From Pseudofrankia inefficax (GTDB lineage: Bacteria; Actinomycetota; Actinomycetes; Frankiales; Frankiaceae), in NCBI RefSeq assembly GCF_000166135.1, contig NC_014666.1, positions 8,060,001-8,124,000 on the forward strand: 64,000 bases of DNA. The letters run 5' to 3'. Each line of letters starts with the position of its first letter. Positions within the stretch are counted from its first letter, which is position 1. Both the position numbers and the translations under genes were made by a program. Of the stretch, positions 1,168 to 29,625 are shown one piece after another. The notes beneath the pieces are model-generated. The model saw only the letters and a program-made list of their open reading frames with translations, was not told where the DNA came from and ran no database searches.

Positions 1168-1302
1168 ATCCGTGTGACGGACATCCCGGAATACACGGTG
1201 TATCGGTGTTCGAGCCGGGCTTGGACGGTCCGCGCTCGCGGGCGATGACGCGTTCCCGTCCAATGAACGGACACCCAGACGACTACCTCTTGCGAGGGAT
1301 TC

Positions 1303-2224: not shown

Positions 2225-2596
2225 ATGGAGCTGCTCGGCGACCTTGAGGCCGAGGTGATGGACCGGATGTGGGCACGGATCGAGCCGGCCACGGTCCGCG
2301 ACATCCTCGAGGAACTGCGGCCTGTCCGCCCACTCGCGTACACCACCGTCATGACCGTGATGGACCGGCTTTTCCAGAAGGGCTGGCTGACCCGCGAACG
2401 CGCCGGCCGGGGATACGCCTACACCACCACCCTCTCGCGTAGCGAGTACACCGCCCGGCAGCTGAGCGAGGTGCTGTCCACCACCGACAACCGCGGTATG
2501 GCGCTCCTGCACTTCGTCCGGGCGATGGACACCGCCGAGGCCGAAGCGCTCAGCGACGCACTGCGCTGGCGGGCACAGGAGAAGGGCCCCAGCTGA
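2225..2596 (+). CDS. BlaI/MecI/CopY family repressor
   Basis: A 123-residue winged-helix repressor. The segment LGDLEAEVMDRMW at the N-terminus and AYTTVMTVMDRLFQKGWL (residues ~38-55) are typical of the BlaI/MecI DNA-binding domain, and the length matches the family. These repressors are inactivated by proteolysis under the control of an M56 sensor protease, which is exactly the next gene, one base after the stop codon. A strong GGGAGG ribosome site precedes the ATG. The pair probably responds to a cell-wall stress or beta-lactam, but no beta-lactamase is nearby, so the target genes are unknown. Confidence 0.9.
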   Translation: MELLGDLEAEVMDRMWARIEPATVRDILEELRPVRPLAYTTVMTVMDRLFQKGWLTRERAGRGYAYTTTLSRSEYTARQLSEVLSTTDNRGMALLHFVRAMDTAEAEALSDALRWRAQEKGPS

Positions 2597-2597
2597 C

Positions 2598-3626: not shown

Positions 3627-3725
3627 GCGGGTACCTGTCGCCACCGGCCGTTTCCAAAGACCATGGGCCGCTGTATCGGTTGAAGGCTGAGAGGCTGGAG
3701 CGCTGGGAACGTTGACTGACGCGAT

Positions 3726-6695
3726 CTAGACGCCAGCCAACGCGGGGCGGGGCCGGCTGGCGCCGGGCGGCTCGGACAGCAGCGCGGCAGCGAGCTGGCG
3801 GCGTGAGGTGATGGCTAGCTTCCGGAAGACTTTGCGCAGGTGGTAGTCGATGGTGTTCGGGCTGAGGTAGAGCTTCGCCGCGATCTCGGCGTTGGTCTCA
3901 CCGGCGGCGGCAAGCCGGGCGATGTGCGCTTCCTGCGTCGTCAGTTCAGTGGCCGTCGGGAGCGGCCGCGCCCGCAGGTGCGATTGCGCGCCGGTAGCAC
4001 CGAGTTCCACGCGGGCGCGCTCGGCGAACCCGGCTGAACCGAGCGACTCGAACAGCTCCAGGGCGCGCCGAAGCTGGTCGCGCGCCTGGTTGCGGTGTTT
4101 CTGGCGACGCAGCCACTCGCCGTAGAGGAGGTGCGTGCGGGCGGTCTCGAGTCCGTTCGTCGCGTCGGTGCACAGGTGGTCGAGCGCCTCGCGGTAGAGC
4201 GCGTCGGCATCAAGGCCTGTCGCGAGCACTGCGCGGGAGCGGGCGAGCAGACCACGGGCGGCCGTGGTACCGGCCGCCGTCGCGGCCTCGGTCAGCGTCG
4301 TCAATGCCGCCTGTGCCGCGGCCCGGTCACCAGCGCGGGCGGCGGCTTCGACGGCGTCGGGGAGCACTTCGGTGCGCGCGATCGGGCAGCCGCTCGCCAT
4401 CGCCGAGCGGGCGTGCCGCAGCGCCAGCGGGTAGTCCCTATGGCCGAGGTGAAACGTGGTCAGGACGCGGTCCAAGGAGGCTTGCAGCGGCGGGTCGGCC
4501 GGTAGTGCCCGCAGGGACACCGCGGCCGCCATCGTGGCCTGCCGGTCGCCGAGCCAGGCGTGGTATTCGGCCGCGGTGAGTTCGGCGGCGCCTGGGCCGC
4601 CGGCTGCCTTGCATGCCTCCAGCGCCCGTGCGTGCCAGACGTCGGCGCCTTCTCGATCTCCCTTCCATATGGCCGCGCGCGTGCGGGCACGCAGCACGAC
4701 GACGTGGGCGGCGAGGCTCTGCGGTTCCCGGGTGCTCGCGTCGAGGCGGGTCATGACGACGTCGAGTCCGTCGTGGTCCCAGGCCATCCGAAAGACGCCG
4801 GAGACCAGCCAGGCCCAGCGGGCCAGCGCGCGGTCGGGGATCGCGCCCGCGACGATCGCGGATCGGCTCGCCTCGAGCGCGCGCGCCGCTTCCCGATAGC
4901 CGTCGCGCAAGAGAAGGAGTAGGCAGGGCAGCAGAACGGCGATGGCGGTGGGCGACGGGGTAATGACCTCGCCGACGGGTGTGGGCAGGGCGAGCTCGGC
5001 CGCCACGTCGTCGATCCCGCCGCCGATGAGCGCCGCCTGGAGCGTCTCGAGTGCGGCCGGCGGGCCGAGCAGGGCGGCCGCCGTCGCGCCGGCCGCCGCG
5101 CCCAGCAGAACGGCCGCCTCGCGGTAGCGGTGGCGGGCGAACAGCACCAGACCGCGCACCCGGGTGAGTCTGGCTTGTTCGAGGTCGCCCCGCAGGTGCG
5201 GTTCGGCCAGTTTGACCAGGTCGGCAGCGCGGTCTTGCTGACCTGAGAGAACGGCTGCCTCGGCTGCCGCGGCGCGGCGCTCGGCCGCGTGCCCGGGCCG
5301 GGGGGTGAGCTCGGCCGCGCGCTCCAGCAGGGCGATCTGCTCGACCGGACGGTTGGTCCGCGCGGCGTGCTCGGCCTGGTCCGCGAGCAGGCGTGCGACG
5401 TCCTCGTCGGTTCCGGCGCTCGCCGCGGCGCTGTGCCACGCGGTCCGCTCCAGGTCACCGACCGTCGCCGCCGCGGCGGCGAGGGTTTGGTGAGCGGCTC
5501 GGCGGTCTGCCGGGTTCGCCCCGGCGTAGGCGATGGCGCGTAGGAGGGGTCGGCGGAACCCCGGTGTGGCATCGACCACGGTCAGTCCGGCCGCCTCGGC
5601 GGCGTCCAGGGCGTCGACCCCGAGCTTTAGGCGTTCAGCGGCGTCTCGGATGAGGTGGCTGTTGCTGGCCGGCTCGGCCGCCGCCAGTAGCAGTAGTTTT
5701 CGTGCCGCTTCCGGCAGGTCCTGGGTCTCGCGGGCGAACTCGGCTGTGAGCTGCGCCGGTACGGGTAGCGGCTGGAAGCCAGCCGAGGCCCGAACGAGGT
5801 CGACGGCGCTCAGCCTGCTGGCGACGTCGACCAGGGCGAGCGGGTGACCGCCGAGGTCGGTGAGTGTCCGGGCCACCACCTCGGCGGGCAGCGGGCCGGC
5901 GGCGGAGTGCCGGAGCAGGGTCTCAGCGTCGGGTCCGGCCAGCTCGCCGACCTGAAGCGCCGGGAGGTCCGCGAGCGGATGCGTTCCGTCGAGGCCGGGC
6001 CGTCTGGTCAGCGGAACGCGGAAGGCAAAGACGACGACAGCCTTGCCGCGGTGCGGCCGACGTGCGCAGAACGCCAGCGCATCCAGCGATTCTCGGTCGA
6101 TCCACTGCGCGTCGTCGACGACGGCCAGCAGCGGTCGGTCGTCCGACGCCAGGCGTGTCAGGAGCCCGAGGGCGGCCAGACCGACCAGGAACCGGTCCAC
6201 CGCGGCGGTCTCGCCGTCGCCCAGCGCCGCCTCCAGTGCGGCGCGCCGGGTCGACGGGAGGTCGCCGACATCGCCGAGCACGGGCGCGAGGAAGCGATGC
6301 AGCGCCGCGTACGCGAGCCCGTGTTCGTGTTCCACGCCGCGCAGCCTGACGACGGTGAAATCACGGGCCTGGCCGACCAGGTGCTCGAGCAGCGCGGTCT
6401 TGCCGATGCCTGCTTCCCCTCGGATGACCAGCGCCTCGCCATGTCCGGCGCGCGCCGCGCCGAGCAGGGCCTCGAGCCGGCGGCGCTCGCGTGCACGGCC
6501 AACGAGTCCGCGCGCTGTCGGGACGTCCCGACTGAACGGTTCGGCAACTGGCTCGCGGGGCGTCGGGCCGGGGCGCCGCACCTCCATCCTGACGTTGCCG
6601 GAATCGGCGAGACCGGAGTCCTGTCGGCGCAGGGCGACACCGCGCACTCCTCTGTTGGGAAGGCGGTCGGGACACTGCGGAGCAAGCGAAGCCAT
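3726..6695 (-). CDS. LAL-type LuxR transcriptional regulator with AAA ATPase domain
   Basis: A 989-residue LAL (large ATP-binding LuxR) regulator. The ATPase domain begins near residue 60 with LVGRARERRRLEALL and has the P-loop GEAGIGKT at ~93-100 and Walker B LLAVVDDAQWID. A long helical repeat region follows, and the C-terminus (~915-970) is a LuxR helix-turn-helix: LTTQEAHIARLAAAG, then TIDYHLRKVFRKLAI. LAL proteins switch on catabolic or secondary-metabolite genes when a ligand and ATP bind. The ATG start at 6695 is kept; an internal ATG at 6587 would remove 36 poorly conserved residues. Its target is not evident; the closest neighbour on the same strand is the permease upstream. Confidence 0.88.
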   Translation of the reverse strand: MASLAPQCPDRLPNRGVRGVALRRQDSGLADSGNVRMEVRRPGPTPREPVAEPFSRDVPTARGLVGRARERRRLEALLGAARAGHGEALVIRGEAGIGKTALLEHLVGQARDFTVVRLRGVEHEHGLAYAALHRFLAPVLGDVGDLPSTRRAALEAALGDGETAAVDRFLVGLAALGLLTRLASDDRPLLAVVDDAQWIDRESLDALAFCARRPHRGKAVVVFAFRVPLTRRPGLDGTHPLADLPALQVGELAGPDAETLLRHSAAGPLPAEVVARTLTDLGGHPLALVDVASRLSAVDLVRASAGFQPLPVPAQLTAEFARETQDLPEAARKLLLLAAAEPASNSHLIRDAAERLKLGVDALDAAEAAGLTVVDATPGFRRPLLRAIAYAGANPADRRAAHQTLAAAAATVGDLERTAWHSAAASAGTDEDVARLLADQAEHAARTNRPVEQIALLERAAELTPRPGHAAERRAAAAEAAVLSGQQDRAADLVKLAEPHLRGDLEQARLTRVRGLVLFARHRYREAAVLLGAAAGATAAALLGPPAALETLQAALIGGGIDDVAAELALPTPVGEVITPSPTAIAVLLPCLLLLLRDGYREAARALEASRSAIVAGAIPDRALARWAWLVSGVFRMAWDHDGLDVVMTRLDASTREPQSLAAHVVVLRARTRAAIWKGDREGADVWHARALEACKAAGGPGAAELTAAEYHAWLGDRQATMAAAVSLRALPADPPLQASLDRVLTTFHLGHRDYPLALRHARSAMASGCPIARTEVLPDAVEAAARAGDRAAAQAALTTLTEAATAAGTTAARGLLARSRAVLATGLDADALYREALDHLCTDATNGLETARTHLLYGEWLRRQKHRNQARDQLRRALELFESLGSAGFAERARVELGATGAQSHLRARPLPTATELTTQEAHIARLAAAGETNAEIAAKLYLSPNTIDYHLRKVFRKLAITSRRQLAAALLSEPPGASRPRPALAGV

Positions 6696-6877
6696 CGCGG
6701 GATCGGCTGCCTTTCTCGTCCGGACTCGGTCCGGCCGGCGAGAATCACCGGCACATAACGAGAATCGCCCTCCATCCGTGTTCTGTCGCTGCCGCTGGCC
6801 ACCGATTCCGCTGCCGCTGGCCGGTCCTTGTCGGTAGTGCTAGCGGTAGTGCCGAAGGGCGGGCCAAGAAGATCAGG

Positions 6878-11856: not shown

Positions 11857-14706
11857 TCAGCACGCCGGCGCCCGCTGCACCAGCGCGTCCCGTAGGGCAG
11901 CCCGGGACGTGATCCCAAGTTTCGGGAAGACGCGGTGAAGGTGGGCACCCACCGTGCGGGGCGAGACGAACAGCCGCTCGGCGATCTGCCTGTTCGTCAG
12001 GCCCGACGCGGCGAGCTCGGCGATCTGGAGCTCCTGCGGGGTGAGACCACCCTGCCCGGGCCGCCTGCCCTGGCCGGTCGCGGCGAGCTCCTTGTTCGCG
12101 CGCCGCGCCCAGGCGTGCGCGCCGAGAGCGGTGAAGGCCTCCTCTGCGAGCTTCAGCTGGCCGGCCGCGCGCACGGTGGAACGCCGCCGGCGCAGCCACT
12201 CCCCGCAGGCGAGCCGGGCCCGCGCCCGTTCGAAGGGCCAGAGCTCGGCCTGAGGCCCGCCCGGCCACCGCGGCGACGGATCGTCGACAAGCCGCAGCGC
12301 CGCCTCGAACAGGGGGCCGGCGGCGTCGACCGGCGCGACGAGGGCCTGCGACACGGCCGCGACGAGCGCCAGCCGCGTCGACCCGCCGACCGCCTCGTCA
12401 TCGGCGAGCGCCGCGACCCGCAAGCGGGCCAGCTCGGGTCGGCCAAGCCTGGCGGCCGCGTCGGCGAGGTCGAGCGTCGCCGCCATCCGTTCACCCGCCA
12501 GCACCGCGCCCGCGACCGGCGCCGCACCGACGACCAGGGCGTGGCGCAGCGCGTCTTCCGCGTCGCCGGCCGCGAGTGCCGCCAGGGCTCGCAGCCGGGA
12601 CGCGAGCAGGTTCACCGCGCCGGCGGCCCGCGACGCCGACCACCCGGCCAGCTCGCCGGCCGCGGTGGATGCCGCGTCGACGTCGCCGCGGGCCGCCGCG
12701 AGCATCCCGTCGACATAGTGAAACGGCCAGGCCTCGGCGGCGAGGCCCGCCGCCTCGATCAGCGCCAGGCCTTCGGCGACGAGAAGGCCCGCCTGGTCCC
12801 AGTGGCCGCTCCACAGCTGGTCCAGACAGAGGTGTCCAAGTGACGCCAGGCGTCCCCGGGTGATCGGCAGCTCGCGCCCGTTGACCACCGCGCGGACAAC
12901 CCAGTGGCGCAGCCCGGCGAGCTGGTCGATGCTCGCGAGGACGAACCCCGCGTGGCGGACCAGCTCCTGATCGGGCCGTTCCGCGCAGCCGGCCAGCAAC
13001 GCCGCCACCTGACGCGGCAAGGGCTCCGCTGGTGGAAGCTCACCGGTCGCGGCGCTTATGCCGGCCTGCGCGAGCGTGGCTGTGGCACGCAGGAAAGCCG
13101 GCGGCTGGGGGCGGACGAGGCGCAGCAGGCGGTCATGCTCAGCCCAGTGGTCGGCGCGGCCGGTGAGCGCGCAGAGCCGGGCCAGTTGGCGCAGCCCCGC
13201 GAACAACGCGTCATCAGCCGGCTCGTCGACCGCCGTCGCCAGTGCGCCGGCGAGCAGCCGATACGCGGCATCCAGGTCGCCACCGCCCTCGATGACGATC
13301 TGAACCGCGACACACGCATACAGCGGTGTCTGTGTGATGGCGGGGTGTGCCCAGCGTGCCCGGCTCAGCAGCGTCGCCGCGCCCGTGCAGTCGCCGGTGA
13401 ACGCGCGGAGCCCAGCCGTCCTGGCGAGCCTCGTGGCCCGCCCGGCCGGATCGGTGCTCAGGTCGGCAGCCCGGGAGTACACGCGCTCCGCGGTGGTCGC
13501 GTCGCCATCCTGGGCGGCGAGGGCTCCGACGTCGTCGAGCCGACGAGCGACGAGTTCGTCCGGGCCGACGGCCGCCTCGGCCAGGTGCCAGGCATGACGG
13601 GCTGGGTGCGCGGACAGCACCGACGCCAAGGCCGCATGGGCCTGCCTGCGCCGCTCGCCACCCGACGCCGCGACGACCGCCGCCTGGATGACGGGGTCTA
13701 CGAAGCTCACGCGGTCCTGGGCCACGACGAGCCCGACCCGGCGGCTGGGCTCCGCCCGCACCGTCTGCTCGCCGCGCAGCACCGTCAACGCCGCCTCGAC
13801 CATGCGGAGGTCACCGACACCTTCAAGGGCGGTGATCAACGCGAAGTCACGGTCGGCCGGTGCCAGCCCGGCCAGCCGCGCCTCGACCAGCCGACGAAAC
13901 GCGTCCGTGACCGTCGGCCCACTCCCCTGCCGATCGGCCACCCGTTCGGCGAGCGCCGCGGCCGCGATCTCGAGCAGGCCGCGCGGATTGCCCTCGGCCA
14001 GGACGACCGCTCGGCGCCGCCAGACCGGCGCGAGGTCGGGGAACTCCCGGTCGACCAGCTCGGCCGCGGCGTGCTCGTCCAGGCCGGTCAGTGTCCATTC
14101 CTCGGCGGCGAGGTCCAGTCCATCGGGCCGGGCGGCGAAGGCGAACACGATGCCCACGGGCACGGCGGCGAGCCGTGCCGCGGTGAACGTGAGGGCGGCG
14201 GCCGTCGGGCCGTCGAGCCGGGCGGCGTCGTCCACGACGAGCAGCACCGGCCGGCTGGCGGACAGACGCCACATCAGCTCAAGCAACGCGGTCCCGACCA
14301 CGAGCGGCGTGGGACTCGGTCCCTCGCGCAGCCCGATCGCGGTCTCGAGCGTCCGGCGCGGGCCGGGTGGCACCACGACCAGCTCGCCGGCGACGGGCAG
14401 CAGCAGCCGGTTGAGCCCGGCGTACCCGAGATCGGCTTCGGCAGCGGCGCCGCGCGTCCGCAGGACCGTCAGGCCGGCGGCCGCCGCCAGCCGCGCGCCG
14501 GCCGTGAGCAGCGCCGACTTTCCTATCCCGCGGTCACCCGTGACGAGCCGCACCTCGCTCTCGGTCCGCACACGGCCGACGAAATCGGCGAGCTCGGCGA
14601 GCTCGTGGTCACGCCCGACCAACCCGGCCGGTGCTCTCCGGCTTCCGGCTGGCGCCGGCCGCGCACCACGGTGCGGCGCCGGCCGCGCCGGCCAGAGCTG
14701 ATCCAT
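11857..14706 (-). CDS. LAL-type LuxR transcriptional regulator with AAA ATPase domain
   Basis: A 949-residue LAL regulator when started at the ATG at 14706; the open frame runs upstream to 14898 but those 64 residues are arginine-rich and unlike the family. The ATPase domain has LVGRDHELAELADF, P-loop GDRGIGKS (57-64) and Walker B VLLVVDDAARLDG. A long helical region follows, then a C-terminal LuxR HTH: LTPQELQIAELAASG and TVGAHLHRVFPKLGI. The Asp-Arg in the P-loop is a small departure from the usual GEAG. It is divergent from the TDT/DHA2 transporter operon and could control it; no operator was identified. Confidence 0.86.
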   Translation of the reverse strand: MDQLWPARPAPHRGARPAPAGSRRAPAGLVGRDHELAELADFVGRVRTESEVRLVTGDRGIGKSALLTAGARLAAAAGLTVLRTRGAAAEADLGYAGLNRLLLPVAGELVVVPPGPRRTLETAIGLREGPSPTPLVVGTALLELMWRLSASRPVLLVVDDAARLDGPTAAALTFTAARLAAVPVGIVFAFAARPDGLDLAAEEWTLTGLDEHAAAELVDREFPDLAPVWRRRAVVLAEGNPRGLLEIAAAALAERVADRQGSGPTVTDAFRRLVEARLAGLAPADRDFALITALEGVGDLRMVEAALTVLRGEQTVRAEPSRRVGLVVAQDRVSFVDPVIQAAVVAASGGERRRQAHAALASVLSAHPARHAWHLAEAAVGPDELVARRLDDVGALAAQDGDATTAERVYSRAADLSTDPAGRATRLARTAGLRAFTGDCTGAATLLSRARWAHPAITQTPLYACVAVQIVIEGGGDLDAAYRLLAGALATAVDEPADDALFAGLRQLARLCALTGRADHWAEHDRLLRLVRPQPPAFLRATATLAQAGISAATGELPPAEPLPRQVAALLAGCAERPDQELVRHAGFVLASIDQLAGLRHWVVRAVVNGRELPITRGRLASLGHLCLDQLWSGHWDQAGLLVAEGLALIEAAGLAAEAWPFHYVDGMLAAARGDVDAASTAAGELAGWSASRAAGAVNLLASRLRALAALAAGDAEDALRHALVVGAAPVAGAVLAGERMAATLDLADAAARLGRPELARLRVAALADDEAVGGSTRLALVAAVSQALVAPVDAAGPLFEAALRLVDDPSPRWPGGPQAELWPFERARARLACGEWLRRRRSTVRAAGQLKLAEEAFTALGAHAWARRANKELAATGQGRRPGQGGLTPQELQIAELAASGLTNRQIAERLFVSPRTVGAHLHRVFPKLGITSRAALRDALVQRAPAC

Positions 14707-15011
14707 CGCCTGGTCCCCTCGTCCCGGCCGCCGGGCGCGGCCTCCAGACCAGCGTCGGGCCACCGGCGACGGCGCGAATCCCGCGTCGCACGTAGTCCAC
14801 GCCCGGCCGGTTCGTAGCGCCGTCCACGCGATCGGCTTCCGGTGTCGTCCGGCCGCGGCGCGCAGGACTACGGACATACGTCGCCGACTGCCGGTCATCT
14901 GACCGATGTAGCGGCGCAGTGCGTGGAGCGACGCTTCGCGTTGTCCACACGCCGCTCCGCCGAGCCCGGACCGCAGGTCATCGGCGGCATCTCCGAGCGG
15001 GGTCGCCGTTC
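14707..15011. other. Divergent intergenic region, LAL regulator / TDT transporter
   Basis: About 305 bases between two divergent starts. Open frames run through it in both directions but their translations are arginine-rich and resemble no family. It should contain the promoters of both units; none could be identified with confidence. Confidence 0.35.
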
Positions 15012-19684: not shown

Positions 19685-20503
19685 TCAGGTCGTGGCCGGG
19701 GTCGCGAGGTGGGCGAGGGCCCAGTCGAGGGCGTAGTCCGCGACGTTCTCCCAGCCCTCCTGGCCAATGGTGAAGTGGGCGCGGCCGGGGAATTCCCGGT
19801 AGTCGGTGACCGCCGCGGATCTGCGGTAATGCCTGGACGCCGACCGGTCGACGGAGGCGGGGACGGTGTGGTCCGCGCCGCCGGCGATCAGGAGCAGGGG
19901 GGCGCGGTCGTCGTTGCCGAAGTCGACCTGGGTGGGCGCGTGTGGGTTGAAGTTGGCGAACGCGCCCTGGAAGAGCACGCGGCCCGGGCCGGGCACCGCA
20001 TAGCGCTCGTACGCCGCCCGGGCCCCGTCCTCGGTCATCGCGTTGGCGAAGGCGTACCGGAACTCCTCGAAGGTCAGCGCGACCGAGCGGTGGGCGTTGG
20101 CCGGGTTCTTCAGGACGGGGAACGCCGATCGCAGCTGCGCGAGCGGGAGCCGGGTGATGCCCTTGACGGCGGCGGCGTCGATCGCCACGCCGGCGGCGCC
20201 GAGGCCGCGGTCGAGCAGGATCTCCGTGAACGCGCCACCGAAGGAGTGGCCCATGATGATCGGCGGGGTGTCCAGCTCGCGGATGATGGCGTCGTAATGG
20301 TCGACGATCTCCTCGATGCCGAGATGGTCCACGACACTCGGGTCGGCGCGCAGTTGCTCGACGCCCGTGTCCATGCCGGGCCAGGCCGGCGCCAGGACCC
20401 GGTGGCCGCGGGCGCGGTACCGGTCGATCCAGTGCTCCCAGCTCAGCGGTGTCATCCACAGGCCGTGGATCAGCACGATCGTCTGGGTCGGGTCGGTGTT
20501 CAT
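19685..20503 (-). CDS. Alpha/beta hydrolase
   Basis: A 272-residue alpha/beta hydrolase. The oxyanion-hole motif is VLIHGLWM near residue 12, the nucleophile elbow is MGHSFGGA near 95 (Ser), the acid is likely in the LIAGGADHTVP segment, and the catalytic His is in FPGRAHFTIGQEGW near the end. The ATG at 20503 is preceded by AGGAGG; an upstream ATG in frame would overlap the SDR remnant and is rejected. The family covers esterases, haloperoxidases and C-C hydrolases; this one resembles the haloperoxidase-like group, but the substrate is unknown. Confidence 0.85.
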   Translation of the reverse strand: MNTDPTQTIVLIHGLWMTPLSWEHWIDRYRARGHRVLAPAWPGMDTGVEQLRADPSVVDHLGIEEIVDHYDAIIRELDTPPIIMGHSFGGAFTEILLDRGLGAAGVAIDAAAVKGITRLPLAQLRSAFPVLKNPANAHRSVALTFEEFRYAFANAMTEDGARAAYERYAVPGPGRVLFQGAFANFNPHAPTQVDFGNDDRAPLLLIAGGADHTVPASVDRSASRHYRRSAAVTDYREFPGRAHFTIGQEGWENVADYALDWALAHLATPATT

Positions 20504-20650: not shown

Positions 20651-20906
20651 CATGCGCAGCAAGTTAGGCGTTTCGGTGCGCGAGTCGCTTCAGCACGATG
20701 ACTGCACCGACGACGTAGGAATGCGGGCGCGACCGCCGTCCGGCGGCATTGAAATCATGGTGCCCGCTTCGGGGGACCGTTCCCTTTCGCAGTCGAATGA
20801 CGCAAGCCGTCCGTCAGTCCGCTGTCTACCGTCTACGAGGACAGGTGATCATTAGGTCGATCCCCGATTTGGAGGCCGGCCGACAATCCGACGGGAAGGT
20901 GCGCCC

Positions 20907-21830
20907 ATGTCGGGTCGCGACGTCCTCGCCGCTCCCTCCGGCGACGTGTCCGCGAAGACGGCGGAACCGGCGGCGCGGTCGCGCCGGGTCAGGTCGGGCG
21001 GCGAAAGACGACCGATCGTGCTGGTCCTCGGCAGCGACCTGACCCGCCCGGCCGGAACACGGGTGCGCCCCCGCGACGGTGCGCGCCGCGGCCCGGCGGC
21101 TACCGGAGCGGCCCGCACCGTCGCCGGCCGGCCCGCCGCCCCGGACGAAGGCCGTCACTTCCCGCCGACGCCGAACATGCTCGCCGCCGGCCGAAGCCGG
21201 GCGGCGTACGAAGGCGACCCGGGCGACTTCCTGGACCTGTTTCCCACCGGCCCCGGCCGGTGGGGCCTCGTCCTTGGCGACGTCTGCGGCCACGATGCCA
21301 AGGCCGCCGGCCTCGCGGCGTGGGCGCGCACGACCGTCCGCCAGGCAGCCGGCCCCGGCCAGGGCCCGCGCGGCGTCCTCGGGCTGCTCAACACGGGCCT
21401 GCTCCGCCAGGCGCCGGACGACGAACGTTTCCTCACCGCCGTCTACCTCGACCTGCGACCGGCGCGAGACGGCTGTCGCGCCGTTCTGTGCTCGGCCGGC
21501 CATCTACCCGCTCTGATCCGCCGCCGGGACGGCACCCTCCACGAGGCCGGCACCGGCGGCATCGTCCTCGGGGTGACCGCCGACCCTCGGCTCACCGAGA
21601 CGTCGCTGTTCCTCGAACCCGGCGACACGGTCCTGCTCTACACCGACGGCGTGACCGAGGCCTGCCGCGGCGGCGAGCGGTACGGCGAACAGAGACTGCG
21701 CCAGCTACTGTCCCGCGTCGGCCATCGCCAGCCCGACGTCCTCGCGCGGACCATCGAACGCACCGCCCTGGAGTTCGGCGACCGCGACCATCGCGACGAC
21801 ATCACCGTCGCCGTCCTGCGGATCACCTGA
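20907..21830 (+). CDS. SpoIIE/RsbU-type PPM protein phosphatase
   Basis: A 307-residue PP2C-like (PPM) serine phosphatase. The domain spans ~85-305 with the metal-binding acids in GLVLGDVCGHDAKAAGLAA, the segment AGHLPALIRR, LLYTDGVTEA and the closing RDDITVAVLRI. The phosphatase starts directly with FPPTPNMLAAGRSRAAYEGD and has no PAS or GAF sensor; residues 1-80 are low-complexity. In actinobacteria such proteins dephosphorylate anti-sigma-factor antagonists (STAS proteins) or act in partner-switching. No anti-sigma or STAS gene is adjacent. GGAAGG lies upstream of the ATG. Confidence 0.87.
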   Translation: MSGRDVLAAPSGDVSAKTAEPAARSRRVRSGGERRPIVLVLGSDLTRPAGTRVRPRDGARRGPAATGAARTVAGRPAAPDEGRHFPPTPNMLAAGRSRAAYEGDPGDFLDLFPTGPGRWGLVLGDVCGHDAKAAGLAAWARTTVRQAAGPGQGPRGVLGLLNTGLLRQAPDDERFLTAVYLDLRPARDGCRAVLCSAGHLPALIRRRDGTLHEAGTGGIVLGVTADPRLTETSLFLEPGDTVLLYTDGVTEACRGGERYGEQRLRQLLSRVGHRQPDVLARTIERTALEFGDRDHRDDITVAVLRIT

Positions 21831-21895: not shown

Positions 21896-24637
21896 TCAGA
21901 CGTTGTCGAGGCGGGTGGCGAGCTGGTTTCGGGACGTTATGTCGAGCTTGGGGAACAGGCGGTAGAGGTGCGAGCCCACCGTCCGAGGGGACAGGTAGAG
22001 ACGTTCGCCGATCTCCTTGTTCGACAGGCCCTCCGCGGCCAGCCGGGCGATCTGCATCTCCTGCGCGGTGAGCACGCTGACCGGGGAGGCCGCGCCGGCC
22101 GTGGTCCGTTCGCCGGCGGCGCGCAGTTCCGTCCGCGCCTGCTCGGCCCAGGACCTCGCGCCGATCAGTTCGAACGTCCTGAGCGCGGACCGCAGCGGAA
22201 CGCGGGCCTCGCTGGCCCGCCGCTGGCGGCGCAGCCAGGCGCCGTAGGCGAACTCCAGGCGGGATCTGGCCCAGGGCCAGCGGACCAGGTCCTGGCGCAG
22301 CGCGTCGGTGAACCGGGCCTCGGCCTCGTCGTCGGGGGCGAGGACGGCGCGCGCGTAGGAGAGGTGGATGTGCAGGGTCGTCGACGGCGTCGTCGTGGCG
22401 GTGTCCTCCAGCTCGGCGATGACGGCCTCGGCGTCGGCTCGCTGGTCGGCGTGCACGGCGGCCTCGGCGAGGCACATGATCCCGTGGAACCGCTCGGTGG
22501 CGTGGTAGGCGGAGTCATGCGGGTCGAACAGGCGGCGCAGCTCGTGGTAGGCGCGGCTGTGCTGCCCGGCGCTGAGCCAGCCGTACCCGCGGGCGAGCTG
22601 CACGCAGGCCAGCAGGTTGTTCAGCCGGCGGTTGCCCGCGTCCCGCTCGGCGTCGTCGGCCATCTTCTGGGCACGGTCGTTGTCGCCGCCCAGGGCGATG
22701 GCCATCGCCGCGAGCGTGCGCGTTCCCGTGTCCCAGATGGGCTGGCCGGTGTCCTGGGCGAGGCGTGCCGCGTCCTCCAGGGCGAAGTCCGCCCGCTGCC
22801 ACTCACCGAGCTCGATCCGGTCGACGGCGCCCATGGTCAGGACGTGGGACAGCAGGCCGAGCCGGCCCTGTTCGCGCAGCTTCGACTCGGCCCGGTCCAG
22901 GAAGTCCAAGGCCCGGTCCGCCATCCCGATGGCATGGGCGGCCATCCCGAGCAGCCGCAGCGCGTCGGCGTCCACGACGGTCTCCACCGCGATCCGCGTC
23001 AGCTTCGCCGCCACCGGCACCGCGCGCAGCAGCGGCTCGGAGACCGCGAGCGCCGCGAGATACCGCGGGTCGTGGTCGGCGCCGACCAGCTCCTCGGTGA
23101 CGGCCGCGACCCGCGCACGGGCGAGCGGGCCGGTGTCGGCCCACCAGCAGCGCAGGGCAGCGCCCAGCAGAAGGTTCAGCGCCAGATCGTTGTTGCCGGA
23201 ACGCGCGGAGCGCCGGGCGATGTCACACAGCTCGAACACCCGGGTGGCGTCGCCGGGGATGCCGTCGTTGAAGATCTCGCGGAGCCATTCCATCCGGGCT
23301 CGGTCCAGCTCGGAGAGGCTGTTGCGGCTGGCCGCGGTCAGCAGCCGGTTGACGAGGTCTGCGCGGCCGAGGCCGAAGCTCAGCTCGGCGGCCAGCAGCA
23401 GCCGGCGGCCTCTCGTCGGCGCGGCGGTGCTCAGCGCGGCCGACCGCTCCAGCGCCGCGATCGCCTCGGTGACCGAGCCGCGCCGCAGGCTCGTCAGGTG
23501 CGCGGCCTCCAGCTCGTCGGCGACCTCGTCGTGCGGCCCGACGACCCCGTGCGCCCGGTGCCAGGTGCGGCGGTAGGGCTCGTCGACGAGTACCTCGGCG
23601 AGTGCGGCGTGGGCCGACTGGCGGCGGTGGACCGACTCCGTCTGCAGGATGCCGGACCGGACCAGCGGGTGGCGGAAACGGATGCTGTGCGCGTCGAGGT
23701 AGATCAGGCCGGCGTCGACGGCGGCGGTGAGCGCGTCCACGTCCGTCGGCTGCCCGGCGAGGATCTCGGCCGCCGCGAGGATCTCGGCGATCCGGTTGTC
23801 GTAGTCGACCGAGGCGACGAGCAGCGCGTCACGTGTCTTCGCCGGCAGCGTCGTCACCCGGCCGGCGAAGCTGCGCTCCAGCCGGGCGCTCAGCGGCAGG
23901 TACGGCGGGAGCACGTCCGAGATCGGGGTCTCGGCCGAGCGCCAGGCGGCGGGCAGCTCCACCAGCGCCAACGGGTTGCCGTCCGCCTCCCGCAGGATCC
24001 GCTCGCGGTCCACGGGCCGCAGGTCGGCCGCCGAGACGGCCAGGATCTCGCGGGCCGCCGCCTCATCGAGCCGGCCCAGATCCAGGTGACGCCGAGCCGA
24101 GGCGAGAAAGGGCCCGTGATGGCCCTTGCGCACGACGCCGACGATGAGGATCGGGTCGTTGGAGACCCTGCGGGCCAGGAAGGCGAGGACCTCGTGGCTG
24201 GGCGCGTCCAACCACTGGACGTCGTCGACGAGCATGACCAGCGGAACCCGCGCCGAGGCGTGCGTGAGCAGGTTGAGTGCCGCCAACGAGATCAGGAACG
24301 GCTCCGGCGGTGGGCCGTCCTCGACTCCGAGCGCCGAGAGCAGGGCCCGTCGCTGCCCGCCGGGAAGGACGTCCGCGTCGGCCACGAACGGGCTCAGCAG
24401 CTGGTGCATCCCCGCGAAGGGAAGCTGAGCCTCGGCCTCCATGCCGACGACCTCGAGGACCCGCCACCCGGCCGCCGCGGCGTGGGTCGCAGTCGCCTGC
24501 AGCAGGCTCGACTTGCCGATGCCGGCGTCGCCGAGCAGGACCAGGGAGTCGCCGTGGTCAGCGACGCCGCCAACCGCTTCGGCCAGGGCGCGCAGCTCGG
24601 TCTCCCGGCCGAAGAGCCTGCTCGTCTCGGTCACCAC
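21896..24637 (-). CDS. LAL-type LuxR transcriptional regulator (second gene of a tandem pair)
   Basis: A 913-residue LAL regulator. The ATPase begins at LFGRETELRALAEAV, with P-loop GDAGIGKS at ~36-43 and Walker B LVMLVDDVQWLDAPSHE. The middle is helical repeats and the C-terminus (~850-905) is a LuxR HTH: LTAQEMQIARLAAEG and TVGSHLYRLFPKLDI. The start is a GTG at 24637, only 34 bases after the stop of its upstream paralogue, so the two are one operon. The paralogue shares the ATPase and the repeat region (for example RCWWADTGP in both), showing a tandem duplication. Only this copy can bind DNA. Confidence 0.88.
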   Translation of the reverse strand: MVTETSRLFGRETELRALAEAVGGVADHGDSLVLLGDAGIGKSSLLQATATHAAAAGWRVLEVVGMEAEAQLPFAGMHQLLSPFVADADVLPGGQRRALLSALGVEDGPPPEPFLISLAALNLLTHASARVPLVMLVDDVQWLDAPSHEVLAFLARRVSNDPILIVGVVRKGHHGPFLASARRHLDLGRLDEAAAREILAVSAADLRPVDRERILREADGNPLALVELPAAWRSAETPISDVLPPYLPLSARLERSFAGRVTTLPAKTRDALLVASVDYDNRIAEILAAAEILAGQPTDVDALTAAVDAGLIYLDAHSIRFRHPLVRSGILQTESVHRRQSAHAALAEVLVDEPYRRTWHRAHGVVGPHDEVADELEAAHLTSLRRGSVTEAIAALERSAALSTAAPTRGRRLLLAAELSFGLGRADLVNRLLTAASRNSLSELDRARMEWLREIFNDGIPGDATRVFELCDIARRSARSGNNDLALNLLLGAALRCWWADTGPLARARVAAVTEELVGADHDPRYLAALAVSEPLLRAVPVAAKLTRIAVETVVDADALRLLGMAAHAIGMADRALDFLDRAESKLREQGRLGLLSHVLTMGAVDRIELGEWQRADFALEDAARLAQDTGQPIWDTGTRTLAAMAIALGGDNDRAQKMADDAERDAGNRRLNNLLACVQLARGYGWLSAGQHSRAYHELRRLFDPHDSAYHATERFHGIMCLAEAAVHADQRADAEAVIAELEDTATTTPSTTLHIHLSYARAVLAPDDEAEARFTDALRQDLVRWPWARSRLEFAYGAWLRRQRRASEARVPLRSALRTFELIGARSWAEQARTELRAAGERTTAGAASPVSVLTAQEMQIARLAAEGLSNKEIGERLYLSPRTVGSHLYRLFPKLDITSRNQLATRLDNV

Positions 24638-24671
24638 ACCACCTTCGACATCGTCACAAGTCTGGCCCAGG

Positions 24672-27200
24672 TCAGCAGTGCGCGAGTTCCACGCGGGCCA
24701 GCTGCGCCCAGGTGATCGCGCCGAGGCCGCCGAGAACCTGGTGGGAGTGGCGCAGCCAGCCGCGGGCGTCCTCGCACCGGCCGGCCCGGCGCAGCCAGGT
24801 GCCGTAGGCGAGCTCGATGCGTGCCCGCACCCAGGGCCACTGGCTCAGGTCGTCGTCGAGGGCCGCCCGGAACTGCGCCTCCGCGTCGGCGGGCCGCGCG
24901 AGCACGGCGCGGGCGTACCGAAGCTGGACGTGCAGCAGCGGGGACGGCGTCACCGCGGCGACGCGTTCCAGGTCCGCGAGCACGGCCAGGGCGTCCTCGC
25001 GGCGCCCGACCAGCACGGCCGCCTCCGCGAGGAACATCACCGCGTCGAACCGCTCGCGCTGGTGATAGCTCGCCGAGTCGGGGTCGAACAGCGCCCGGTA
25101 GGCGTCGTAGGCGGCCTCGTAGCGGCCCTCGGTGAACCACGCGATGCCGCGCGCCAGCTGCACGCAGGACAGCAGGTCGTTCAGCCGCTGCTGGTTGGCC
25201 GCGAGCTCCGCCTGGCCGGCCAGGTCCAGGGCGCGCTCCGCGTCCCCCCGCAGTGCCTGGGCCCGCGCGTCGCAGACCAGGGTTCCGGTCGTCCAGATGG
25301 GCTGCCCGGTGTCCTCGGCCAGGCGGCGGCCCTCGGCGGCGGCCGCCGCGGCCCGGTCCCAGCTCCCGAGCTCCAGCCGGACGACGACCTGCATGCTCAG
25401 CACGTGCGCGAGCAGCCCGAGGCGGCCCTGGTCCCGCAGCAGGGTCTCGGCGCGGTCGAGCAGCTCGGCCGCCCGCGGGCTGTCGCCGATCGCGTGCGCG
25501 GCCATCCCGAGCAGCCGCAGAGACGCCGGATCGTCGACGATGTCGATCACGACGCGGTCCAGCAGCCGCGTGACCTCCGCGCCCTGAAGGACGGGCTCGG
25601 CGACGGCGAGAGCCGCGATGAACCTCGGATCGCCGGACTGGCCCGGCAACGTCGCGAGGACCTCGGTGACACGAGCCCTGGCGGCCGGCCCGGTGTCGGC
25701 CCACCAGCAGCGCATTCCGGCACCCAGCAGCAGGTTGAGCGCCAGGCTGACGTCGCCGGCCTGGGCCGAGCGTCGAGCGACGTCACAGAGCTCGAACACG
25801 CGGGTCGCGTCGCCGGGTATCCCGTCGTGGAAGATCTCGCGGAGCCACTGCGTCCGGGCCCAGTCGAGCTCGTCGAGGTCGTTGCGGACGGCGGCCTTGA
25901 TGAGCCGGCTGACAAGGTCCGCGCGCCCCAGGCCGAACGCGTGCTCGGCGGCCACGAGCAGCCGGTGGCCGCGCCGGGCCGGACCGGTGGTCAGCTGCGC
26001 GGCCCGCTCCAGCGTCGCGATGGCCGACATGACCGCGCCCCGCTTCAACGAGACGGCCGCGGCCGCGTCGAGGCCGTCGGCGATGTCGTCATCCGGGCCG
26101 ACGACCGACTGCGCCCGGTGCCAGGTCTGCCGGTACGGCTCGTCGACCAGGACCCGTGCCAGCGCGGCGTTCGCGGACTGTCTGCGCCCCAGCGGCTCGG
26201 ACTGCAGGACACCCGATCGCACCAGCGGGTGCCGGAACTCCACGCAGCGGCCGGACACGCGCAGCAGCCCCGCCCCGACCGCCGGATCCAGCACCTCCGC
26301 GGAGACCGGCCCCTGACTGAGCACGGCCGTCGCCGCGAGGATCTCCGACACCGTGTTCTCGCCGTCGACCGCGGCCACCAGCACGGCATCCCGGGTCTGG
26401 GCCGGCAGGTCCGTGATCCGGCCGCCGAACGCCCGCTCCAGCCGCGCGGACAGGCTCAGCGGCGCTCCCTCGAAGGGAGCGCCGCCGGACAGCCGCCAGG
26501 ACTCGGGCAGTTCGAGCAGGGCCAGCGGGTTCCCGGCCGACTCCCGCAGGATGCGACGCCGGTCGGGCATCGGCAGGTCGCCCGCATGACGACCGAGGAT
26601 GTGCTCGGCCGAGGCGTCGTCCAGGCCGGTGACCACCAGCTCGCGCAGGCCCACCGCGAGGAACGGGCCAGGGTGGCCAGTCCGCGCCGCCCCGACGACC
26701 ACCAACCCGGCCTGCGCCGACCGCCTGGCCAGGAACGCCAGCACCTCATGCGTCTGCGGGTCGAGCCACTGCACGTCGTCCGCGATCAGCGCCACCCGGG
26801 CCCCGTCCGCGAGCGAGGTCACCAGGCTCAGGACGGCACGCGCGATCAGGAACCCCTCCGGCCTCGGGCCGTCGGACATGCCGAACGCCGAGAGCAGCGC
26901 GTCGCGCTCCGCGGCCGGCACCCCGTCCAGGCTCCGCAGGACGGGCTGGAGGAGCTGATGCAGACCGGCGAACGGCAGCTGCGCCTCCGCCTCCACCCCC
27001 ACGGTCGTCAGAACGCGGCAGCGACGGGCCCGTGCTCGGCGTTCCAGCTCACCCAGCAGCGCCGACTTGCCGATTCCCGCCTCGCCGACCAGGACGAGCG
27101 CGCCGCCCCGCGACGAGGTGCCATCGAGCACCTCGTCCAGCACCGCGAGCTCGCGTTCCCTGCCGGTCAGAGCGGACATAGCCATCGACGGCCCTGTCAT
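24672..27200 (-). CDS. LAL-like ATPase lacking the LuxR DNA-binding domain
   Basis: An 842-residue paralogue of the following gene. ATPase domain with LTGRERELAVLDEVL, P-loop GEAGIGKS (39-46) and Walker B VALIADDVQWLDPQTHE, then the same helical repeat region (RCWWADTGPAARARV; WPWVRARIELAYGTWLRR). It stops at ARVELAHC, exactly where the linker to the HTH begins in its neighbour; no HTH follows in any frame before the next start. The ATG at 27200 is chosen; the frame extends to 27281 without family likeness. It may pair with the complete copy as a ligand-sensing or dominant-negative partner, which is inference. The alternative is simple decay. Confidence 0.82.
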   Translation of the reverse strand: MTGPSMAMSALTGRERELAVLDEVLDGTSSRGGALVLVGEAGIGKSALLGELERRARARRCRVLTTVGVEAEAQLPFAGLHQLLQPVLRSLDGVPAAERDALLSAFGMSDGPRPEGFLIARAVLSLVTSLADGARVALIADDVQWLDPQTHEVLAFLARRSAQAGLVVVGAARTGHPGPFLAVGLRELVVTGLDDASAEHILGRHAGDLPMPDRRRILRESAGNPLALLELPESWRLSGGAPFEGAPLSLSARLERAFGGRITDLPAQTRDAVLVAAVDGENTVSEILAATAVLSQGPVSAEVLDPAVGAGLLRVSGRCVEFRHPLVRSGVLQSEPLGRRQSANAALARVLVDEPYRQTWHRAQSVVGPDDDIADGLDAAAAVSLKRGAVMSAIATLERAAQLTTGPARRGHRLLVAAEHAFGLGRADLVSRLIKAAVRNDLDELDWARTQWLREIFHDGIPGDATRVFELCDVARRSAQAGDVSLALNLLLGAGMRCWWADTGPAARARVTEVLATLPGQSGDPRFIAALAVAEPVLQGAEVTRLLDRVVIDIVDDPASLRLLGMAAHAIGDSPRAAELLDRAETLLRDQGRLGLLAHVLSMQVVVRLELGSWDRAAAAAAEGRRLAEDTGQPIWTTGTLVCDARAQALRGDAERALDLAGQAELAANQQRLNDLLSCVQLARGIAWFTEGRYEAAYDAYRALFDPDSASYHQRERFDAVMFLAEAAVLVGRREDALAVLADLERVAAVTPSPLLHVQLRYARAVLARPADAEAQFRAALDDDLSQWPWVRARIELAYGTWLRRAGRCEDARGWLRHSHQVLGGLGAITWAQLARVELAHC

Positions 27201-27314
27201 GTCGGCATGCCCACCTTTCCTACCGTCGCCGCTGAGATCAGCCGAAGGTAGTAAATGATCACGGTGGGCGGCTTCAGTCATCCGACTGCACCTGCCCTCG
27301 GCTGCGGCGGGGCG

Positions 27315-28253
27315 TCACCGGACGACGAGGACCGTCTTGCCCGGTGGCCGCGGGCCGCGGCCGCTCTCGAACGCCTCGCGGCCCTGGGCCAGCGGGTAGG
27401 TCCGCGCGACCACCGGGCGCAGCCTTCCGTCGTCGACCAGCGCGGCGAGGCGGTTGAGCTCGGTGCGGTCGGGCCGTACGACGAAGAAGATCGCCCGTAC
27501 CCCGTAGCCGTCCGCCACCTCCGCGGACGGCGGCGCCCCCAGCGTGACGAGCCGGCCACCCGGACGCAGGACGCGATACGACCGGTCGAGCGTGCTCCCG
27601 CCGACGGTGTCGAGCACGACGTCCACGTCGGCGGTGACCTCGTCGAAGGCGGTGGCGGTGACGTCGATGAACGTCTCGGCGCCGAGTTCCCGCACGAACC
27701 GCTCATGCGCCGGCAGGTCGGTCGCCGTCACGTGTGCTCCCAGGATCGCCGCGAGCTGGACGCCGTAGACACCGACTCCGCCGGCGCCGCCGTGCACCAG
27801 CACCCGCTCGCCGGGCCGCAGCCCCGCGTGGTCGACAAGCGCCTGCCAGGCGGTGAGAGCGGCGAGCGGGAGCGCGGCGGCCTCGACGTGCGACGCCCGC
27901 GCGGGCTTGGCGCCGAGATCGGCCGCCGGCACGGCCACGTAATCCGCCGCGGCACCGTCCCGGTCAAAATCGATCAGGCCGAAGACCTCGTCGCCCACCG
28001 CCATCCCGTCGACGCCCGCGCCCACGGCGGCGACGACCCCCGACACCTCGTGCGACGGAATCATCGGGGTTCGATCGGCGCCGTTCCGGGTCGTCCACGA
28101 CTGCTCCCAGGTGAGCTCGGCGAAGGTGATCGCCGCCGCGTGCACGGCGACAAGCACCTCCCCCGGCCCGGGCACCGGCCTCGGGGCCTTCTCGTAGACC
28201 AGCTCTTCCGCGCCGCCGCGCGCGTGGGCACGAAGCGCCATCATGACGTCCAT
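27315..28253 (-). CDS. NADP-dependent MDR oxidoreductase (quinone reductase-like)
   Basis: A 312-residue medium-chain reductase without zinc. The N-terminal GroES-like domain carries the typical PRPVPGPGEVLVAVHAA, and the Rossmann fold has VLVHGGAGGVGVYGVQLA near residue 145 with TATDLPAHERF after it. The end FESGRGPRPPGKTVLVV is the usual closing strand. Zinc-binding cysteines are absent, which fits the quinone oxidoreductase group. The ATG at 28253 has AAGGAG upstream; the longer frame is rejected. It follows the secreted hydrolase gene on the same strand at ~110 bases, so the two may be co-transcribed. Substrate unknown. Confidence 0.86.
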   Translation of the reverse strand: MDVMMALRAHARGGAEELVYEKAPRPVPGPGEVLVAVHAAAITFAELTWEQSWTTRNGADRTPMIPSHEVSGVVAAVGAGVDGMAVGDEVFGLIDFDRDGAAADYVAVPAADLGAKPARASHVEAAALPLAALTAWQALVDHAGLRPGERVLVHGGAGGVGVYGVQLAAILGAHVTATDLPAHERFVRELGAETFIDVTATAFDEVTADVDVVLDTVGGSTLDRSYRVLRPGGRLVTLGAPPSAEVADGYGVRAIFFVVRPDRTELNRLAALVDDGRLRPVVARTYPLAQGREAFESGRGPRPPGKTVLVVR

Positions 28254-28360: not shown

Positions 28361-29218
28361 TCACGCGACGCCGCGCGACGCGCTTTCGATGAGGCCCGTG
28401 ACCGCGTCCGGCCGCGAAATGAGCACGGCATGCGACGCGTTCACCTCCGCCGTGTGCGCGCCCGCGCGTCGAGCCATGAACCGCTCCGTGGCCGGCGGGA
28501 TCGCCTGGTCGGCGGATGCCACCAGATACCACGACGGGATCGTCTTCCACGCCGCCGACGTGGCGGACTCCTGTAGGGCGGAAAGCGTCACCGGGCGCTG
28601 GGACGCGGCCAGGACGGCCGCGGTCGTCGCCGGCAGGTCAGCCGCGAAGACCTGGGAGAACCGTGCGCTGTTGATATAGACGTCGACGCCGTCATCGCCA
28701 CCGGTTCCGGCGAACGGCAGCGAGGTCACGGCGGTCGGCAGCGCGCTGCCCGGGTTCATTCCAATCAGCCCGAACGCACTCTCACCGACCGTGGGCGCGA
28801 AGGCGGCGACATAGACGAGGGCCTTCACGTTCGGCGCCGCCGCGGCGGCCTGGGTGATGACCGCGCCGCCGTACGAGTGGCCCACCAGGATCACCGGCCC
28901 GGGGATCGTGTGGAGCACGCTGTCGAGATAGGTCGCGTCGCTGGCCAGACCGCGCAGCGGGTTCGCGGGCGCCACGACCGGGTAGCCGGCACGCTGCAGA
29001 CGCGTCACGACGCCACTCCAGCTGGACGCGTCCGCGAACGCACCGTGTACCAGGACAATGGTCGGCTTCGGCGGGCCGCCGTTCGGCTGCCCGGCATCCG
29101 CCCGCGGGGCGAGCACCATGAGCAGTACGCCGAGCACGGCCAGCGCACCCATCAGGCGCACCGGTCGCAGGGCGAACAGACGACGAAACGGCCGACTGAC
29201 CGGACGGCCAGAGGACAT
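28361..29218 (-). CDS. Secreted alpha/beta hydrolase
   Basis: A 285-residue alpha/beta hydrolase with a signal peptide: basic RPFRRLFALRPVR, a hydrophobic run to about residue 38, and an ADA-type cleavage region. The mature domain has IVLVHGAFADASSW (oxyanion site), nucleophile VGHSYGGAVITQ (Ser), an acid in LVASADQAIPP and the catalytic His near ASHAVLISRP. This arrangement matches the esterase/EstA-like group often annotated as alpha/beta hydrolases with salicylate- or pyrethroid-esterase resemblance. GGGAGG precedes the ATG at 29218. The natural substrate is unknown. Confidence 0.85.
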   Translation of the reverse strand: MSSGRPVSRPFRRLFALRPVRLMGALAVLGVLLMVLAPRADAGQPNGGPPKPTIVLVHGAFADASSWSGVVTRLQRAGYPVVAPANPLRGLASDATYLDSVLHTIPGPVILVGHSYGGAVITQAAAAAPNVKALVYVAAFAPTVGESAFGLIGMNPGSALPTAVTSLPFAGTGGDDGVDVYINSARFSQVFAADLPATTAAVLAASQRPVTLSALQESATSAAWKTIPSWYLVASADQAIPPATERFMARRAGAHTAEVNASHAVLISRPDAVTGLIESASRGVA

Positions 29219-29625
29219 GAACAGCCTCCCAAAATGGTCGCCAGAAGACGGCGAACGACCTACGGCTTTCCGGCAGGGAAAATCGAGCCCGGCCATGCGA
29301 ATGCCAGGCAGCATTCCAGCTGAGCATCCGGTTCCCGTCCGCGCCGTAACCGCCGATACGCAGCAGGCTGGCAGGGGTGAAAGAGGAGTACAGGGCAAAG
29401 AATCAAAGTTCGTGGACCAGCACCGTGGCCATCACGCTAGACAGCGACACCCCGGCTGAGCTTGCGTCATCCGACTGCAATCCCCACACGAGTCACCAGA
29501 GCCCACCCGACGACCCGCGGAACCGGACTGTGACCGACGACGTCGAGGCTCGCGACAAGGGAGTCCCGGAACCCGGAGGACATACACCACCGAACGCGGC
29601 ATGGACCCCGCCGAGGCGACCCTAA
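29219..29625. other. Gene-poor stretch upstream of the secreted hydrolase
   Basis: About 400 bases with several short open frames that resemble no family. It must include the hydrolase promoter. The composition is less GC-biased than in the neighbouring genes, consistent with decayed sequence leading into the substrate-binding-protein remnant. Confidence 0.3.

Follow-up and report, generated by a model that had tools for sequence, protein, structure and literature searches.

What is a large regulatory ATPase kept for when it lacks the helix-turn-helix (HTH) domain by which its family binds DNA and lies beside a paralogue that has one? The question is raised by two tandem genes, P1 and P2, of Pseudofrankia inefficax, in a stretch of 64,000 nucleotides (contig NC_014666.1, positions 8,060,001–8,124,000, forward strand), here called the window. 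LAL activators, to which P2 belongs, switch on many actinomycete gene clusters; to our knowledge, little has been learned of what restrains or tunes them. Comparison with relatives supports the view that P1 is selected as an ATPase without DNA-binding output of its own and is tied to an HTH-bearing partner.

Domain content of P1 and P2

P1 and P2 are on the same strand, P1 first, with a spacing of 34 bp. They are 57% identical (473 of 834 residues, 4 gaps), the alignment running to P1 residue 839 and P2 residue 838. Pfam finds an AAA_16 ATPase in both proteins (9.1e-20 in P1) and GerE in P2 only (2.2e-15); the body of P1 has the same MalT-like helical sensor as that of P2. P1 has no GerE match in Pfam, scores 0 bits with the HTH model built in this analysis, and carries no Pfam DNA-binding domain at the N-terminus, the ATPase starting at residue 11, and no Pfam effector domain at either end. 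The first-pass annotation, which read the locus as two tandem LAL paralogues with a common ATPase and helical region and an upstream member without HTH, is thus confirmed. P2 has the size, Walker A motif and C-terminal HTH of a LAL; P1 has the size (842 aa against about 900) and the Walker A motif only. Because the family criterion includes a C-terminal LuxR-type HTH (in the available part of PMC3282765), P1 is a LAL-derived STAND ATPase and not a LAL in the strict sense; P2 is a LAL.

The 842-codon frame of P1 is intact, as had been annotated. A longer start (ATG at 27281, 869 codons) falls within the putative operator at 27271–27289, and the shorter frame is therefore preferred. The stop codon stands only three residues past the last residue aligned to P2. 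An HTH hidden in another frame, frameshifted or fused downstream of P1, is excluded, since just 34 bp precede P2.

The AlphaFold model of P1 (31-sequence alignment, mean pLDDT 89.1, pTM 0.74) is a complete protein of nucleotide-binding oligomerisation domain (NOD), arm and tetratricopeptide repeats (TPR), with high pLDDT through the TPR part. It has the STAND layout: a NOD with nucleotide-binding, helical and winged-helix parts, then arm and repeat sensor. The effector domain, a general but not universal STAND feature, is absent. The top Foldseek match is the STAND protein PH0952 (6mfv, E 6.6e-12) and the third is the MalT NOD (8bob); whole-chain TM-scores to these are low (0.23–0.42), as would follow from a different arrangement of the domains, and the domain matches are good. 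VIA-align to the MalT sensor 1hz4 gives Z 23.6, with a root mean square deviation of 4.1 for 318 residues, and Rap-type TPR proteins match equally well. A PDB sequence search with an alignment returns mainly HTH domains and TPR proteins. The last model helix (829–841) stands at the chain end, so the cut lies at a domain border, in agreement with the clean cut first described for P1.

P1-type relatives and state of the HTH

P1-type genes, defined as homologues scoring higher against P1 than against P2, number twelve with P1 included, in 12 actinobacterial genomes, so that the HTH-less state is not peculiar to the window genome. Members are the window gene; Planotetraspora (L039); Hamadaea (L040); Streptomyces L041, L042, L043 and G330 (locus L185); G131 and G245, from a search of the genus Streptomyces; G556; G955; and a gene on the mobilizable linear Streptomyces plasmid NZ_CP108071.1 (L202), where HTH-less gene and HTH-bearing partner are both annotated 'AAA family ATPase'. 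The HTH is wholly absent in five (window, L040, G556, plasmid, G955). A short degenerate HTH, ending early, is retained in seven; the clean cut of the first-pass annotation holds for P1 and not as a general trait. Pfam GerE is missing from nine of ten relatives tested (G330 not among them), and no effector domain is found by Pfam at either end of the ten, the one exception being L039, where GerE is matched in part and below threshold (21.3 bits, cut-off 23.5).

The HTH score has a bimodal distribution over 184 LAL bodies that are complete and end in a stop (183 distinct): 171 lie at 57–106 bits and 13 at 0–23 bits, twelve of the latter forming the P1-type clade. The count takes in neither incomplete or contig-end-cut bodies nor loci fetched later (L205 on), such as the HTH-bearing match G1351 (94 bits). 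The HTH model is built from the HTHs of these same loci, and Pfam agrees with it. The thirteenth low-scoring body (L108, 1072–4215, +) is a remote LAL-like protein of a Gemmatimonadetes metagenome-assembled genome, with a 33-residue tail.

The genome searches comprise 1984 genomes, repeats included, together with plasmids; the best 16 first-look candidates per genome are scored in one search and the best 2–3 in the others, so absences and per-genome counts are lower bounds. No match above 43% identity is found in 57 other genomes, 34 of them of the same family as the window. Horizontal transfer of P1-type genes is likely, given their patchy distribution and the copy carried by a plasmid; vertical inheritance among the relatives of the window is disfavoured on the same grounds. 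A phage search gives remote matches only. The phage-labelled record MT839385.1 (human faeces) holds a full LAL-like body at 549–3053, 32% identical, and is probably bacterial DNA. An HTH-bearing clade member, G473:C253:1318-3831, has one in-frame TAG inside the matched stretch.

Selection on the HTH-less body

All 12 P1-type frames are open, and every one conserves the GNPLAL motif and the sensor arginine as well as Walker A and Walker B. The ratio of non-synonymous to synonymous divergence (omega) of the HTH-less body is 0.12, 0.28, 0.15, 0.30, 0.14 and 0.20 in the six pairs among four Streptomyces, with likelihood ratios against omega = 1 of 57–241. Five informative pairs of their HTH-bearing partners give 0.19–0.23; the HTH-less value is the higher in two of six pairs (0.28 and 0.30 against 0.20 and 0.19). 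The L041/G330 partner pair (omega 0.99 at a synonymous divergence, dS, of 0.004) is uninformative. For pairs with the window gene dS is saturated (8.5 for P1 against the plasmid gene), and only the Streptomyces values are informative. Mean pairwise identity over three body segments is 0.56/0.63/0.54 in the HTH-less set against 0.52/0.59/0.51 in the partners; being no lower, it gives no sign of relaxed selection. Only seven positions separate the two sets (e.g. Ala at P1 381, His at P2 380), too few to interpret. Degenerate tails are more diverged, at 0.57 identity over 21 pairs, against 0.73 over 66 pairs for the HTHs of the partners; in Streptomyces the omega of the tails is 0.03–0.33, under 1 but from short and noisy stretches.

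The first-pass annotation had suggested that selection keeps an ATPase without output, possibly to inhibit its partner or to gate it by ligand, with a dN/dS comparison as the check and relaxed selection or frame breaks in orthologues as the signs against it. Neither sign is seen, and body omega of 0.12–0.30, twelve open frames and the tie to an HTH-bearing partner all agree with selected retention of such an ATPase. A truncated pseudogene or assembly artefact, to which the missing family-defining domain might point, is scarcely credible for P1: the same state recurs in 12 genomes with open frames and omega well below 1, and the window genome is one contig of 8,815,781 bases. Relaxed decay is ruled out by the frames and omega values, and for the P1-type set as a whole the pseudogene or artefact reading is already refuted.

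Linkage and phylogeny

An HTH-bearing homologue adjoins all 12 P1-type genes, in three arrangements. The two genes are adjacent on the same strand in ten loci and divergent in two (G131, G245). The HTH-less gene is first in five (window, L039, G556, plasmid, G955) and second in five (L040 and four Streptomyces of one lineage); the Hamadaea pair (L040) overlaps by 4 bp. Such constancy under three arrangements means that linkage outlives rearrangement. It also makes it improbable that P1 is a STAND hub acting on other proteins with P2 not needed. Other STAND proteins do recruit downstream proteins once oligomerised (PMC10427625, in part), and yet no Pfam effector domain is found in P1 or ten relatives, save the sub-threshold GerE of L039.

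Members of the HTH-bearing clade without a P1-type neighbour occur at eight loci (L186–L193); L193 is from the same genome as L039, which carries the pair elsewhere. Long frame-broken P1 remnants next to HTH-bearing genes are absent from 14 loci. A short N-terminal LAL fragment (about 100–120 residues, 39–48% identical, of uncertain parentage) is present in L186, and a piece of 160 residues (35% identity) in L204. At L186, L187, L188, L197 and L198 the clade member adjoins a second LAL that shares only about 31–41% identity with P1 or P2; the pairing of LALs may be more widespread.

Trees are built on the body alone, HTH removed. A quick tree of 64 rows with 10 HTH-less genes (LAL matches below 600 bits left out save twelve hand-picked loci, rows below 500 aa dropped) gives one change of HTH state, support 79. 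A careful tree of 39 chosen rows with all 12 genes needs two changes at best; one suffices in 32% of 200 bootstrap trees, and shuffled labels average 10.5. A single HTH-less clade is not rejected (approximately unbiased test, p 0.25), nor demonstrated. The trees indicate an old loss of the HTH, with one or two origins.

A palindromic operator

A putative operator with the consensus of about (G/T)CAGTC-N4-GAC(T/G)(G/C)AAGC lies upstream of LAL genes and neighbouring enzymes; the perfect palindrome, GCTTCAGTC-N4-GACTGAAGC, occurs at L183 6808–6829. The window has four sites, each with an in-register -10 element, and three pass with matrices from which each locus is left out in turn. The exact core CAGTCN4GACTGAAGC has a single occurrence in the genome (8.8 Mb), before P1. 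With up to two mismatches, 28 matches are found at 25 places, and an in-register -10 at four of four window places against one of 21 elsewhere. The operator signal is one of local density and register, not of genome-wide enrichment.

The matrix is seeded from these same loci, and the following counts are therefore from the leave-one-locus-out matrices, with L185 (G330) omitted as a near copy of L041. The 11 HTH-less loci, 243 kb together, hold 36 merged sites (0.67 after shuffling); loci with HTH-bearing clade members only hold 22 over 133 kb, and other LAL loci 7 over 250 kb (0.0 after shuffling in both); a looser matrix gives 14 matches in other LAL loci against 7.7 in shuffles. The hexamer TANNNT, which is not used in motif discovery, stands exactly 20–21 nt past the site on either strand in 20/36, 7/22 and 5/7 of these sites, respectively (background 0.3%). 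In a 59-site set, 26 of 27 such downstream hexamers are at offsets 20–21. This register implies that the palindrome covers the -35 region. LuxR-type class II activators sit over that region.

With gene starts partly chosen by hand, ten of 12 loci have a site ahead of the HTH-less gene, at 34–80 bp from its start in nine and 414 bp in G245. In the other two a site heads an inferred operon containing the HTH-less gene: the Hamadaea site is 96 bp before the HTH-bearing gene, and the plasmid site (L202 9992) precedes five co-directional genes. A variant palindrome is found at three loci of more distant LALs, as ACCGTCACATGACGTAAGC in L195 (17005) and L196 (8730) and also at L050 8774, each with an in-register -10; this hints that the operator code varies with the HTH.

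The operator is also present in six of the eight clade loci without a P1-type neighbour (for L193, one of the six, the genome has the pair elsewhere, and in three of the six another HTH-bearing LAL adjoins); P1 thus seems accessory, not required. The same observation tells against a split of sensor and helper as in paired NLRs, in which ligand binding by P1 would nucleate the oligomer of P2, and P2 would bind DNA. Such a split would account for the whole sensor kept under selection, the high pLDDT across the TPR part and the HTH-less gene being first in 5 of 12 loci. With no P1-type body segment diverging faster than those of the partners, it is rather unlikely.

The partner's operator is not the only one in the four-member Streptomyces lineage: the HTH-less gene carries its own as well. 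This fits a regulated function better than constructive neutral evolution, in which duplicates co-assembled, one HTH decayed because half suffice, and P1 is kept since its loss unbalances the complex. The several decay states of the HTH (five absent, seven degenerate), the lower identity of degenerate tails (0.57 against 0.73) and the unrejected single origin suit that course; linkage that survives transfer and rearrangement does not, and we regard it as unlikely.

Proposed role of P1

In STAND activators, oligomerisation driven by ligand and ATP orders the C-terminal DNA-binding domains (PMC10427625 and PMC6468293, each in part). With its assembly body complete, its ATPase intact and the HTH gone, P1 would be expected to enter the oligomer and change its output. 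At even odds (about 0.5), P1 is an accessory subunit, ATP-competent and under feedback control, that enters the STAND oligomer of P2 and modulates P2. P1 would bind and turn over ATP like P2, enter the ATP-dependent P2 oligomer through the common NOD-arm-sensor body, and so modulate the number and timing of the HTH domains displayed. P2 would activate a small local regulon through the palindromic operator at the LuxR class II activator position. As the P1-P2 operon bears this operator, the level of P1 would rise with the activator.

A brake appears somewhat more likely than a co-sensor, its chief alternative, as the direction of the effect; a ligand is likewise presumed. The brake is favoured because the operator is present where an HTH-bearing member has no P1 beside it, so that activation seems independent of P1, because P1 itself is under the activator's operator, and because TrlR, CerN and FleT modulate or inhibit (PMC11655674, in part). 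A wider form of the proposal, which we hold as tentative and on the whole doubtful, is a two-protein STAND switch with sensing and gating (P1) and DNA-binding output (P2) in one mixed ring, as in paired NLRs, carried on a mobile cassette that can be rearranged and brings along an operator code, the P1 half HTH-less across several actinobacterial families.

Several observations weigh against the modulating subunit. Tandem LAL pairs with two HTHs are common nearby (L186–L188, L197, L198), and adjacency alone is weak. The trees of P1 and P2 are incongruent: the sister of P1 is the plasmid gene (100/99) and the nearest relatives of P2 are the G131 and G245 copies (100/100); the two halves have not always moved together. 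Partner distance matrices are weakly correlated over nine independent lineages (r 0.47, p 0.077; r 0.76, p 0.0002 over all 12 pairs including four close Streptomyces), and the own partner is the nearest HTH-bearing gene in just one of 12. Incongruence and weak correlation suggest that partners are exchanged or that P1 tolerates any partner of the clade; such exchange would argue against a tightly co-evolved obligate complex. As to the operator, a reversed control pattern has 91 genome-wide matches against 28 loose operator matches; the window alone has six loose matches against 2.83 in shuffles, 2 of 100 shuffles reaching six, a weak excess. The G556 site, with a score of just 14.1, fails the stricter leave-one-out threshold, and the L040 and L202 sites are all without an in-register -10. 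Loss of the HTH, a conserved body, selection, linkage and an operator with in-register -10 are firmly indicated by sequence comparison; the interaction of P1 with P2 is a step further that we infer, as we infer from co-occurrence that P2 is the reader of the operator.

Features and neighbouring genes of the window

The G+C content of the window is 68–78% (2-kb steps). Two further HTH-bearing LAL-type genes are present, at 11857–14898 (-) and about 3700–6800 (-), making four LALs within about 24 kb. Coordinates of the features are given in Table 1.

Table 1. Positions of P1, P2, putative operators and neighbouring genes in the window.
Feature	Position	Strand	Basis or remark
P1, HTH-less LAL/STAND ATPase, 842 codons	24672..27200	-	open frame, Pfam, alignment, AlphaFold model
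P1 Walker A, GEAGIGKSA	27060..27086	-	GKS/GKT kept in 12/12 P1-type genes
P1 Walker B region, ALIADDVQWLD	26760..26792	-	DD kept in 12/12 P1-type genes
P2, LAL activator with C-terminal LuxR-type HTH, 913 codons	21896..24637	-	open frame, Pfam
P2 GerE/LuxR HTH, residues 854-908	21914..22078	-	Pfam; absent from P1
Putative operator before P1-P2 operon, GCAGTC-GGAT-GACTGAAGC	27271..27289	-	motif search
-10-like TACCTT, 21 nt past the P1-P2 operator	27245..27250	-	register count
Putative operator upstream of ABH2-QOR, TAGCGT in register	29460..29478	-	motif search
Putative operator upstream of ABH1, weakest of four, TAACTT in register	20687..20705	-	below leave-one-out threshold
Putative operator upstream of SpoIIE-type phosphatase gene, TACCGT in register	20789..20807	+	motif search
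QOR, zinc-type (quinone) oxidoreductase, possible target with ABH2	27315..28253	-	ATG start inferred
ABH2, alpha/beta hydrolase, likely target	28361..29218	-	ATG start inferred
ABH1, alpha/beta hydrolase, likely target	19685..20503	-	ATG start inferred
SpoIIE-type (PP2C-like) phosphatase, likely target	20907..21830	+	operator upstream

Relatives of the neighbours are counted near 11 HTH-less loci (L185 included, window left out) and 22 controls of unequal lengths (8.6–26.5 kb). QOR relatives are near 3/11 against 3/22, ABH2 relatives near 4/11 against 4/22 and ABH1 relatives near 5/11 against 6/22; no relative of the SpoIIE-type phosphatase is found in the 33 other loci tested. The conserved neighbourhood is rejected as proof of a common pathway, as hydrolases and reductase are also near other LALs, and is suggestive only. 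At L202 8824–9475 the plasmid ABH1-type hydrolase gives a match split in two, as though from an interrupted gene.

Comparison with known systems

The logic of a partner without output is known in other regulator families; for LAL or STAND activators none is found described in the searched literature. Neither an HTH-less LAL partner nor this operator is mentioned there (titles and starts of abstracts; subscription papers not covered), and the operator is new here. If the proposed role is true, the conserved HTH-less LAL would be a handle on such activators: its deletion would free the activator, and the protein itself could serve to find the ligand. The operator offers a direct in vitro assay, with P2 on the 22-bp site in the presence and absence of P1.

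P1 resembles LAL regulators of the MalT type in size, N-terminal ATPase with Walker A/B and MalT-like helical sensor, and differs in the absence of the C-terminal HTH; P2 is an ordinary member. In the pairs TrlR/TraR, CerN/CerM and FleT/FleQ a homologue without DNA-binding domain binds and alters the full-length regulator (PMC11655674, in part). P1 likewise lacks the domain and keeps the assembly body, and may alter its partner in a mixed complex. Those systems are AHL-type LuxR proteins and FleQ, whereas P1, which shares 57% identity with its partner, is a STAND ATPase of large size and of a type conserved across several actinobacterial families. MalT is a STAND activator restrained by other proteins, MalY, Aes and MalK, MalY masking an oligomerisation face; MalY is a protein binding pyridoxal phosphate, not a STAND protein, whereas P1 is a paralogue of the activator (PMC10427625, in part).

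PimR and AfsR, as far as their partly available descriptions go, are SARP regulators whose body is LAL-like or of the NOD-TPR kind. PimR is not known to have the C-terminal LuxR HTH. They are like P1 in having a LAL-like body without that HTH as the DNA-binding part, and unlike it in having an N-terminal SARP DNA-binding domain, of which P1 has none.

Paired NLRs (NAIP/NLRC4, plant sensor/helper pairs) couple a STAND protein with a relative that lacks the usual output. P1 and P2 are alike as a related STAND pair; the NLRs are eukaryotic immune receptors, and the P1-P2 protein pair is a proposed one. Were the proposed role borne out, the paired-receptor logic of NLR immunity would extend to bacterial transcription.

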